Shown one piece after another: positions 49,437-56,978 of a stretch of 64,000 nt of DNA; the first letter of the stretch is position 1, and every line of letters begins with the position of its first letter. The DNA comes from Deuterostichococcus epilithicus. Taxonomy: Eukaryota > Chlorophyta > Trebouxiophyceae > Prasiolales > Stichococcaceae. The DNA lies in NCBI GenBank assembly GCA_033439295.1, contig JAVTLE010000005.1, positions 2,406,501 through 2,470,500 of the forward strand. Direction: 5' to 3'. The translations under genes were made by a program, and so were the position numbers. The notes beneath the pieces were generated by a model, which saw nothing but the letters and a program-made list of their open reading frames with translations, made no database searches and was not told the origin of the DNA.

Positions 49437-52400
49437 TCAGCAGCCGGTGTAATTGATCTCATACGCTGCAGTCGAGATGATGCTCATCGCTGCGATGCAG
49501 TCCAGCAGCCAGTTGACCAGCACCACCAGGACGCCCGGGCGCGCCTGAGGCCAGGCACGCAAGTCAATCATCGAACATCCAGGCAGGATGTCACTCGATA
49601 TCAGCAGCGCTAGCTGCCGCCAAGCTGAACAGTTGATCGAGGAATGCAGCTGGTGGCGGCCGCAGCAAACATGACGCAGGCCACATGGCAGTTTGTCGCA
49701 TTGTCAGGTCTGCAGCCTCGAACAAACACAACCTCTCAAATTCTGCAGCCCTGCAGCAACTCAGATCTGCATGACGGATGGGAAATTACTTGAACAACAG
49801 CAAGTGAAGAAAAGCCAGTGCAATGAGAAAAGAACCAAAGTTTGAAATCGCTCACCGCCAGCTCCTGGACCTCGGCGGCGATGGTGCCGGTGGACAGCAC
49901 GTAAACTGACGACTGCGGCGGCGTGGCGGCCTGGGACCCATCAGGCGCTTCGGCGGCCGCTGCCTCGTGCTCCGCCGTGGCCTGCGCTTCCGCCGTGGCC
50001 ACTACCGCCGGCAGGTCCGTCAGCAGGTTGCCGCCCGCCTCCGCGACCAGCACCTCCAGCTCGTTGCGCGACAACGGCTTCGTGTCTGCGGGTCAGAAGA
50101 ACGCACCTCATCAGCACGCTTGTGGCACACCTCAGTGCACGGATGCGTGCACCATCATCAGGGCACATGATGGCAGTGATCTATCAGAATGGTCGAACCA
50201 TCGGAGTTCGTGAGGAGGCACTCGGAAGACTTGATACGAGACCATGGATGACTGCGCTAGCAGCCCCGGCCGCAGCGGAAATCGCACCAGCAGTGATGGA
50301 GCGGCCGAGCACGATGCCCTCGTGCATGGCGTGCAGCAGCGGCGGCTTGCCGTTGCGGTGCCGCAGGCGAGCCCTGCGCGGCCCGTCCGGCTTAGGCAGC
50401 CCCCCGGCCACGCCCTGCCCGGCACCACATGCGACACAATGAGCGGTGCAAGCGAGCATCCACTGCAGGCGCGTCTGCAGCCGCAAGCGGCAAGTCCTCC
50501 CGGCGCCTCGTGACGCTGTCAGTGTGCCGATACGCGAGCGATTGGGACTCACAGTATGCACACTTCACGTTTCGATGACATTGATAACGCTGCATCGCAG
50601 GGCAGATGAGGGATCCTGGTGCTTCAGACGGTGTCATTTGGGACGGCATTATTGGCGCATTGGCGCACCTGGACCTCAAAGTCGGCTTCAGGCAGCCAGG
50701 CGCCGGCGTCCACGGACTGGAGGACCCAGTCCCAGGACAGCAGCCAGCAGCCGCGCAGCATCGCCCGCAGCGCCTTGATCGTGCGGCGCGCCTGCTGTCC
50801 CCGTGCGGTGCTGAGCACCAGGTGTGTCGTGCCCCTGCAGACGAAACAGGTGTCACAGGTGTCACAGTGTCGTCAAGCTGAGCATCAGAGCGACTGCCGC
50901 AGGCATGCCTCTGCATGACGCAAGATTGTCAGGCTTCACGTAGGCTGTCCAGTTTCAGATGCCTGTTGGCTCGCTCGAACTGGATCCATGGCACCAGGCG
51001 CGAGGCGGTAGCCTGCCGAGGAGCGCACTCTGGTGGCGCGGTGGACAGTTTGTTGAGCGCAAACGCGTCGCCCCGCTGGTCGCAGAATCCGGCTAGCAGC
51101 TTGACTTTGCGGTCGGGCATTGAGGTGCAGGAAATGACCCTTCTGCCGTCGTCCCTGCAGCACACGCCCTGGCTCAGTGCGGGCGCCGTGCAACCCCCAC
51201 AAAGAAGCGTGCAGCTCGCAGTGCCGCCTGAGCAGGTGAGACATCGCGCCAGACTCTGGCGCATCCAGTGCTCACGGCAAACCCAGACGGGCGGACAGGC
51301 GGTTCTACATCAGGGGTGCCACCGCCACGAGACTCCCACCAGGCTCGAATCAAGGGGTACATGCAGGGGGGCACGCCTGCGGCCCGCCCTGGCGCAGGGA
51401 TCCACTGTGCCCAGCACCTGGCGCCCGGCACGCGCCTTCTTCAGGCTCTGGGATCCGGGCTTGGCTGTCTGCAGGCGCCAATTGGGAACTGATTCACACT
51501 TGCGCTCTCATCTAAGTGACGATGGTAGCTGACCGTTTCAGGACAGAGAAGTTGCTGGCAGCATGAACACTGTCCAGGCATTGTTTTCGTTGCATCCGCC
51601 CGCGCAGTCAGAGCGGCGAAAGGGTCTCGCCTTCGGAGTGTCGAGGCTGGACATGCCGGTCAGTCGCAGGACCGCCGGCGTTACCGCCGAGCTGCGGCGC
51701 CCCGGCTGCGACGCCGCGGGCGTCTTCCAGCTTCCCCCGGCCCTTCCAGCGGCCAGAGCGGGGCTGCCGCCGCGCGCGCACGTCCCTGAGCCGCCCGGCA
51801 GGCAGGCGAACAGCGCCTCGCCGCCGTCGTGCAGCCAGGCCGCGGCTGACGTCGGCGCTGCCCCGGCGGCCCGGCCACGGGCCGCATCGCTGCAAGGCGC
51901 GCCTGCGGCGCTGTCTCGGCGGGCGGTGCCGGACGCTGCCATGTTGGGGTTCCACCAGGCTGGCGTGGCGGCAGTCGCCGTGCTGTCGCGCCAGGTGGCC
52001 GGCGTCTTCATGACGGCGGAAGGCGGCGTGGGTGCACTGCAGGCGGGCGCGTTGGCGGCGCTGTCCGGACGCGCCGCCGGCGTAGCCATCTGGGACTGCG
52101 CCACCGGCGTGACCAGCTGCAATGGCGCTGCCGGCGTGCCAGATGGCGGCCCAGCTGACGTTGCCTCTGCTGCGGCCGGCGCGCAGCCCCCGGCTGCGTC
52201 GACCTGACCCAGCGTCGCCGCCGCCGCCCCTGCGGCGTGCGGCGGCGGAGCCACCAGCGGCGCCGCAGCGGGCACCGGCGCCTCGCCGCTGACTGGCCCG
52301 GACGCGCCACAGCGATCTGGCATGTCCCGGCGCATCACGGCGGCCCGGGCGCCGAGCCGCGCCGGCGGACTGTCGGCGCGGCGGGCAGCCGAGGCGGGCG

Positions 52401-55400: not shown

Positions 55401-56978
55401 CTGCCGTATTGCATGGGCTGCGGCTGCAGGTGCAGCTGCTGCTGCGGCTGCGGCTGCGGTTGCTGCTCGGAGTCCCTCTGATCGCCCTGCGCTGCCGCGG
55501 CTGACGACTGCGCCTCTGCTGCTTGGTGACTCGGCTGTGCCGCCACCGCTGCCGTTGCCACCGCTGCAGCCCAGGGCAGCACGACCGCTGGTGACAGCGC
55601 ACTGCCTTCGGCGCGGCGGCGCTCTGCGGACTCCGGCGCCGACCTTGTGGACCCTGCCGGTGGGTTCCCTCCATCAGAGGCTCGCCGCATACTGGCTGGC
55701 TGCGCTGCTGCGGCCTGGCTGCGCCGCGTCATGTCGGAGCCCGCACCCGCAGATGCGGTTGTGCTCGGCAAAGCGCCCTGCGACGCCTGAGCGCCATCAG
55801 GACAAGGACGCTCTGCCGCCGGTGCCAGGGCTTGCTCTGCAGGGCAGGCTTGAGCAGCACGCTGCTGCGGCTGCGGCGGCGCTGCGGCATCGCTTCGCGA
55901 CGGCGGGTCTGATGGTGCTGCCAAATCCGCTGATGGCTGCTCGCTTGCCGGTGACAATGCTGCCTGAGGGCTGCCGTGCTGCTGGCTGGCCGCCTCTGCT
56001 GTTGGAGGGCTGCAGCACTCTGGGCCTGGCTGCCGCCGCTGCTGCTGCTGCTGCTGCTGCTGCTGCTGCTGCTGCTGCTGCTGCTGCTGCTGCTGCTGCT
56101 GCTGCTGCTGCTGCTGCTGCTGCTGCTGCTGCTGCTGCTGCTGCTGCTGCTGCTGCTGCCGCTGCTGCTGCTGTGACGCGTCTGCGGAGAGTCTGGCACA
56201 GCGCGCAGGTTCTTCGGCATGCGCTACCGAAGTGCCGGCGGACGCGGCCTGGCGGCTGTGCTCTGCCTGTGGCTGGGACGGCGTCGGTGTGCTGTCGGAC
56301 CCATCCCCGGCCGCAGACACAGCTGCAGGCACACACCAAGCATGATGGGCATCAAAGAAAGTATATCCTTTGGACATGCAGACCGTCACGAGAGATCACA
56401 CCACACACCACACGCCACACCCCCGTCGCAAACCTGGAAGCTCGACAATGCGCAGCTGGCGAACGAAGTCAACTATGCCCTGGTGCAGCAGGTGCGGCCG
56501 GAGGTCGTTCTTCCAGCCCGGCTGGCCGCACGACGGGCACTTGGATTCGGTGATGCCGATGCCCTCCAGCGTCGGTATGACGCACTCACTGCGGCGAAAT
56601 GCACGGCATGTTAGGGCCGGCCTCCCACAGCTCCCGCGCAGGTCGAGCCTCGGTGCGGCACTATGCTTTTCATAATGACGTAGAGAGTACGTTGTTGAGA
56701 CGGCCTGCCAGCAAGCCTCAAAGACTTACTAGCAGAAGACGCAGCCGCAGGTGGTGAACTCATGCGGCTTCTTGAAGAGGTCATCGCTGCGGCAGCATTA
56801 CACACATGCATGTGAGGGTCACACGCCAAGAATGCGTAATGCATGCTATTCAGGGTCTCAATCTCTAAAATTTTGCATGCACAGGCAGCCCGTACCACAG
56901 GGGACATGTCTCCGAGGCTTCGATGGACTGCAGACACGATGCTCGGCACTCGAACACCCTGCGCAGGCCCCCCGACAT
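49437..56978 (-). CDS. RING-like / Tudor-like / tandem-BRCT protein (BRCA1- or 53BP1-related)
   Basis: Probable DNA-damage-response factor. First exons 56978-56938, 56786-56730 and 56588-56434 join in phase into a degenerate RING finger: FECRASDDLFKKPHEFTTC, GCVFCYEC, then KCPSCGQPGWKNDLRP. The first zinc pair has one Cys and the usual His is Cys. A large exon (about 56.32-55.2 kb) carries a poly-Gln tract and Ser/Gln/Ala-rich disorder. About 55.1-53.7 kb adds a short helical segment and more disorder. A Tudor-like fold spans about 53.5-53.1 kb (VGQRLEVYWEDDARHYAGVA; GKHHIDYDDSDSEEVDLSEV). A long disordered exon runs to about 51.6 kb. BRCT1 is at about 51.17-50.64 kb (TTHLVLSTARG, ALRAMLRGCWLLSWDWVLQS) and BRCT2 at about 50.1-49.4 kb (SRNELEVLVAEAGGNLL, VVLVNWLLDCIAAMS). 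An in-frame stop precedes the ATG. It could instead be two genes. Undetermined bases lie at 52967 and 53052. Confidence 0.68.
56038..56159. repeat. Pure (CTG)n/(CAG)n tract of about 40 triplets, coding poly-Gln
   Basis: Uninterrupted GCT/CTG triplets on the plus strand, read as CAG (Gln) on the minus strand within a large exon of the BRCT protein; short imperfect CTG extensions follow to about 56174. The opposite-strand ORFs full of Leu or Ala are shadows of this repeat. The exact copy number may differ between individuals or be affected by assembly. Confidence 0.95.

Follow-up and report, generated by a model that had tools for sequence, protein, structure and literature searches.

A predicted algal protein with RING, Tudor and tandem BRCT domains

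BRCA1 and BARD1 of Arabidopsis carry an N-terminal RING domain and a C-terminal BRCT pair, and animal BARD1 has the same order, with a separate histone-reading module between the two. Here, we describe a gene model with the same termini from the green alga Deuterostichococcus epilithicus, which lies on the minus strand of a 64,000-nucleotide stretch of DNA (the window; contig C5, 2406501–2470500) and places a Tudor domain between RING and BRCT pair. The central module sets it apart from both described designs: the ankyrin repeats of animal BARD1 read H4K20me0 (PMC8514019), and the Arabidopsis proteins are described as having an extended PHD (ePHD) before the BRCTs (PMC11014961), whereas at E up to 1 the full-length algal model matched neither ankyrin nor PHD families, and 10 scanned open frames of the region gave no PHD match either.

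As a long protein with both a Tudor and a BRCT pair, the algal model also resembles 53BP1 and Crb2. To our knowledge, 53BP1 has no RING, and MCPH1 (microcephalin), which provides the best BRCT match among solved structures, has neither RING nor Tudor. RDM15, most of whose H3K4me1-contact residues recur in the algal Tudor, lacks RING and BRCT as far as we know, as do PDS5C and plant MSH6, whereas the algal model has both. The Tudors of 53BP1 are described as a tandem that recognizes H4K20me2, accompanied by a ubiquitin-reading motif (PMC8514019), whereas the algal Tudor is single and plant-type. H3K4me1-binding Tudors are linked to repair through plant PDS5C and MSH6, which they are reported to bring to gene bodies (PMC10371858); recruitment by H3K4me1 through Tudors is also reported in PMC13361950. 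In searches of open-access PMC, with papers judged by title and the start of the abstract, we found none describing a RING–Tudor–BRCT-pair protein of this kind.

Domain content and layout

RING, Tudor and BRCT pair can be joined in one open frame by a 14-exon model that runs on the minus strand from 56978 to 49437 and whose spliced translation has 1628 aa and one terminal stop. The original prediction had placed RING-like, Tudor-like and tandem BRCT regions in four stretches of this strand, and Pfam and PDB matches bear this out at all four, weakly for the second BRCT. Tentatively, we read the product as a nuclear DNA-damage scaffold of BRCA1/BARD1-type layout, with its repair role predicted from its domains. 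The parts of the model are listed below.

49437–56978, minus strand: whole gene model, 14 exons, 1628 aa, with the ATG at 56978 and the TGA ending at 49437 (spliced translation)
56896–56978, minus strand: exon 1, with the ATG and the Cys pair that opens the RING (CPLC, aa 25–28)
56730–56786, minus strand: exon 2, RING loop with zinc-ligand positions C-G-C-x2-C and a Cys at the usual His position
56434–56588, minus strand: exon 3, remainder of the RING (CPSC, aa 64–67) and adjoining downstream stretch
55319–56322, minus strand: exon 4, Ala/Gln/Pro-rich linker (by composition) including a polyglutamine tract, open in the model frame only
56029–56173, minus strand: CAG repeat, 48 copies of the 3-base unit, longest pure Q run 40 (TRF)
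54842–55071, minus strand: exon 5, linker (gene model)
53730–54592, minus strand: exon 6, linker with the basic stretch SSRRKRRKQ, without in-frame Met (gene model)
53408–53511, minus strand: exon 7, N-terminal half of the Tudor with W814 and Y821 of the cage, without in-frame Met
53125–53199, minus strand: start of exon 8, C-terminal half of the Tudor with Y839, D841, D843 and E845
51631–53199, minus strand: entire exon 8, end of the Tudor and then a long Ala/Gly/Ser-rich linker; the model end, a GC donor, is provisional
51418–51468, minus strand: exon 9, 17 aa, the least certain exon
51029–51168, minus strand: exon 10, first half of BRCT1 (RRVISCTSMPD; MCPH1 alignment)
50669–50834, minus strand: exon 11, remaining half of BRCT1, including RRTIK and the WLLSWDWV helix (BRCA1 and MCPH1 alignments)
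50288–50414, minus strand: exon 12, linker between the two BRCTs and beginning of BRCT2 (gene model, Pfam)
49856–50085, minus strand: exon 13, BRCT2 (PF16589/PF18428, below cut-off)
49437–49544, minus strand: exon 14, last part of BRCT2 with the stop codon (gene model, Pfam)
49376–49380, minus strand: TGTAA, starting 57 bases beyond the end of the stop codon

The CAG repeat at 56029–56173 could differ in length among strains.

The Tudor (aa 797–857, exons 7 and 8) matches PDB entry 7de9 with an E-value of 6.3e-11 over 61 ungapped residues, 24 of which are identical; at E up to 10 the sole further PDB match is unrelated (0.58). In the fragment scan, the Pfam family PTM_DIR17_Tudor was hit at 3.6e-4, below its cut-off. 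Entry 7DE9 represents Arabidopsis RDM15 bound to H3K4me1, and the accompanying report names Trp616, Tyr623, Tyr641, Asp643, Asp645, Glu647 and Gln654 as contacts of H3R2 and H3K4me1 (PMC8184781). Six of these seven contacts are identical in the algal domain (W616, Y623, Y641, D643, D645 and E647), with a valine in place of Q654, and the RDM15-type aromatic cage W/Y/Y with its two Asp is kept in full (5/5). The domain is a single plant-type Tudor, closest to the H3K4me1 reader RDM15, and is predicted to bind the same mark. The 53BP1 Tudor model PF09038 was absent from the Pfam matches of both the Tudor fragment and the whole 1628-aa model; a genome search with PF09038 likewise gave no match, yet its controls gave none either, so that this search is uninformative. 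The original prediction had also suggested that the protein, if real, merges features of two animal pathways that oppose each other, those of BRCA1 and 53BP1. This part is not supported, and the 53BP1 analogy fails, as the Tudor is of the plant, RDM15-like type and not of the tandem 53BP1 type.

BRCT1 is closest to MCPH1 (PDB, 3.5e-10), slightly ahead of BRCA1 (1e-8 to 2.1e-7), and is followed at a distance by trypanosome KKT4 (4.4e-5), BARD1 (from 8.2e-5) and MDC1 (from 3.1e-4). Its R-T-x-K positions are kept: within RRTIK, the R, T and K align at BRCA1 R1699, T1700 and K1702 (numbering that assumes a chain start at 1646), which we take to be residues of the phosphoserine pocket. BRCT2 was hit by BRCT_2 at 2.2e-4 and by BRCT_3 at 4.8e-4 (PF16589/PF18428), both below cut-off, and is weak but probable.

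The RING (aa 25–67) has eight zinc-ligand positions in RING spacing, C25-x2-C28, C41-x-C43-x2-C46-x2-C49 and C64-x2-C67. All ligands are Cys, with Cys43 at the usual His position, so that it is not a classic C3HC4 domain. A 117-aa fragment passes the cut-offs of PF13923 (1.8e-6, 28.1 bits against 27) and PF00097 (1.8e-5, 25 bits against 21). Three controls, made by reversing the sequences of the RING, Tudor and BRCT regions, gave no family match, and judged by these scans RING, Tudor and BRCT1 are beyond chance.

Two further features were considered and set aside. For a PHD hidden in the Cys-rich frame over intron 9, the 10 open frames scanned gave no PHD match (this frame itself hit DUF5682 at 0.0046, under cut-off), and the protein has 19 SQ sites, which is about the number expected by our estimate from its Ser/Gln-rich composition and gives no ground for a cluster of ATM/ATR targets.

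Relationship to BRCA1 and BARD1

The termini could point to a true BRCA1 or BARD1 orthologue, with a Tudor instead of the ePHD. We hold this descent to be possible, if doubtful. Order and termini match, with the RING first and the BRCT pair last, BRCA1 and BARD1 are both among the RING and BRCT matches, and PHD and ankyrin matches are lacking; but neither protein is singled out, since MCPH1 outscores them in the BRCT, as do TRIM21 and rad18 in the RING. The RING matches 78 PDB sequences at E up to 1; among the best 60 of these 78, TRIM21 comes first (1.8e-6), then other TRIMs, BRE1 and COP1, and the matches listed include BRCA1 (from 5.4e-4), RING2 (from 5.6e-4) and BARD1 (from 2.4e-3). In NCBIfam, rad18 matched in part (2.2e-7) but, at 30.5 bits, far below its cut-off of 175, and PF14835, the Pfam family for RINGs of BARD1 type, scored 0.0064, under its cut-off. 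A BARD1-specific RING was also sought through the stretch C-P-x-C-x-x-P-x-W, but the search listed eight chains, none of them BARD1, and TRIM21 and rad18 matched the RING better, so that the idea was dropped. Taken on its sequence matches, the RING is without clear subfamily and is not diagnostic of BRCA1/BARD1.

The same rankings could also reflect an independent assembly, in which a RAD18- or TRIM-like RING was joined to a Tudor-bearing phospho-reader of MCPH1/MDC1 type, and the likeness to BRCA1 arose by convergence. TRIM21 and the partial rad18 match lead for the RING, and MCPH1 leads for the BRCT, with a shared TSMP strand. However, pairwise scores of short domains rank relatives poorly, and a separate gene of MCPH1-like layout already exists on contig C12 (L045, described below); we consider this origin somewhat unlikely.

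Several results weigh against the scaffold reading itself. In a scan of the full-length 1628-aa protein, the RING (3.3e-5), Tudor (0.015), BRCT_2 (0.071) and BRCT (0.12) all stayed short of the Pfam cut-offs, and BRCT2 alone, run with phmmer against the PDB, found no BRCT chain at E up to 10. In the PDB and NCBIfam comparisons given above, the RING has closer matches than BRCA1 and BARD1. No RING-BRCT gene that might supply a RING heterodimer partner, as in BRCA1/BARD1, was seen in six-frame searches of the genome (46.8 Mb, 21 contigs), searches that are insensitive to exon-split genes and in several cases missed the window's own domains: those with PF00533, PF21743, PF16589 and PF18428 did not list the gene itself, a miss that probably reflects the division of its domains between exons. 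Finally, no orthologue was found in genome_contigs and viral_contigs, which cover prokaryotes and viruses.

A bolder form of the BRCA1/BARD1 interpretation holds that in the algal lineage a scaffold of this family shed its ePHD and acquired a Tudor of H3K4me1 type, so that a BRCA1-like ligase would itself read a gene-body mark and couple homologous-recombination repair to active genes. We regard this as rather unlikely. If true, a single protein would link the choice of repair to the chromatin context, and one could test directly which histone mark takes the place of H4K20me0 recognition outside animals.

Continuity of the gene model

The original prediction assigned all domains to one gene with long low-complexity linkers, which agrees with the 14-exon open frame. 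We favour this single gene, presumably read as a single transcript, as the probable arrangement. Of the 13 introns, 12 have GT-AG borders, the exception being intron 8 with GC-AG; their lengths are 109–311 nt, with a G+C content of 0.50–0.68 compared with 0.56–0.78 in exons. No in-frame ATG occurs in exon 6 or exon 7, even where their frames stay open beyond the exon ends, so that the Tudor, whose first half lies in exon 7, cannot easily open a gene of its own. On the minus strand from 57000 to 49000, TGTAA occurs three times, at 49376–49380 and once each inside introns 1 and 7; there is none between introns 1 and 7, nor between intron 7 and 49380. We take TGTAA to be the chlorophyte polyadenylation signal, and the copy past the stop codon may mark the gene end.

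The linker exons 4, 6 and 8 (1004, 863 and 1569 nt) are open in the model frame only. Codon scores in this frame are small and positive for exons 4, 5, 6 and 8, fall slightly below zero in exon 9, and are exceeded by those of a reverse frame in exons 4 and 8. These scores are weak and count against the scaffold reading; the evidence for the linkers is their open frame, not codon score. To be counted on the same side is the junction of exons 8 to 10, the weakest link of the model, with its GC donor and 17-aa exon 9. As many as 73 alternative in-frame GT-AG joins lead from exon 8 directly to exon 10, none preferred and all giving exon 8 a canonical GT donor, and the donor between exons 10 and 11 is one of four in-frame GT options.

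Because the exon 8–10 junction is ambiguous, a separate BRCT gene is possible. A split after the Tudor would yield a RING-Tudor gene (exons 1–8, to a stop near 51538) and a BRCT-pair gene from an ATG at 51264, within a frame of exon 10 that is open from 51309, and it would fall exactly where the model is weakest. We nevertheless think it improbable, since the two genes would be only about 270 nt apart, the minus strand has no TGTAA from intron 7 to 49380, and in-frame GT-AG joins across the junction do exist.

A split before the Tudor is likewise quite unlikely. It would separate a RING gene (exons 1–4, to a stop at 55205) from a Tudor-tandem-BRCT gene that begins in or just before exon 5. The exon 5 frame does stay open upstream, where ATGs at 55116 and 55089 are in frame, the exon itself has two more, and only low-complexity linkers, which have no homology support, connect RING to Tudor. 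Nevertheless, the second gene would have to start in exon 5 or earlier, as exons 6 and 7 with their extensions offer no ATG, which leaves an intergenic gap of about 90 nt (stop at 55205 to ATG at 55116) or about 290 nt (to the first ATG within exon 5); the minus strand has no TGTAA between introns 1 and 7; and exons 3–4, 4–5, 5–6 and 6–7 join in frame through GT-AG introns of 111–249 nt.

Upstream, the single-gene model is bounded by a divergent plus-strand neighbour that extends from 57532, where the position of its first ATG is a guess, to beyond 58500. Its joined exon pieces match PhyH (phytanoyl-CoA dioxygenase-like) in Pfam at 7.1e-15.

Predicted function and related loci

The best reading of the layout is that an H3K4me1-type Tudor sits where animal BARD1 would have its ankyrin repeats and Arabidopsis BRCA1/BARD1 an extended PHD. 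E3 activity, histone mark and phospho-ligand are all things we infer from conserved residues. By binding H3K4me1-type methyl-lysine, the Tudor would keep the protein at the chromatin of active genes, on H3K4me1 nucleosomes, in line with the reports on plant PDS5C and MSH6, while the C-terminal BRCT pair would bind a phosphoserine made by a damage kinase. Candidate phospho-ligands are H2A variants of the same genome: at least two of nine H2A C-terminal matches, L064 (G000:C15:289671) and L066 (G000:C5:1555656), have C-termini that end in SQEF. The N-terminal RING, alone or with a partner, would bring a ubiquitin-conjugating enzyme (E2) that ubiquitylates nearby chromatin or repair proteins, and the long low-complexity linkers would let RING, Tudor and BRCT pair act on neighbouring nucleosomes. 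As predicted, the layout suggests a way of steering DNA repair to particular chromatin.

The protein could also be a chromatin or transcription regulator and not a repair factor, to which we assign little probability. One precedent would be ROW1, the Arabidopsis BARD1 homologue. ROW1 is reported to confine WOX5 expression (PMC4316744), and RDM15 itself is described as working in RNA-directed DNA methylation (PMC8184781); against this, one survey names the BRCT domain as a hallmark of proteins in the damage response (PMC11014961).

Tudors of the RDM15-like type are also present in other genes of this genome, so that a Tudor module was available for shuffling. On the minus strand of L048 (G000:C7:490000-499000), one lies downstream of a SET-domain-like sequence, read by eye, and the locus may possibly encode a histone methyltransferase that reads the mark. 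At L039 (G000:C19, around 1887184-1887984), two Tudor-like units of the same type lie within about 1 kb, perhaps in one multi-Tudor gene.

The C-terminus of another H2A match, L065, ends in SEEY. Among the other BRCT loci, no RING was seen by eye at L001–L003 (one open frame each), nor at L052, L053, L054, L056 and L059 (frames of at least 40 aa), a reading that left L051, L055, L057 and L058 outside. L052 (G000:C19:1363544) contains another BRCT-like exon, with BRCT_2 at 0.0013 on joined pieces, below cut-off.

Outside the window, the tBRCT search listed a single place, which lies on C12 (E 0.002). This locus, L045 (G000:C12:1640400-1650300), was considered as the RING-BRCT partner and rejected: at about 794–5900 it holds a separate gene with an N-terminal BRCT followed by a BRCT pair, which is an MCPH1-like layout. 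According to the authors of an Arabidopsis survey, BCP1 and BCP4 are not unambiguously identifiable in most chlorophytes (PMC11014961). The same survey reports that no Arabidopsis protein combines its domains in the manner and order of TP53BP1 or MCPH1 (PMC11014961), although an MCPH1-like layout is present in this algal genome.

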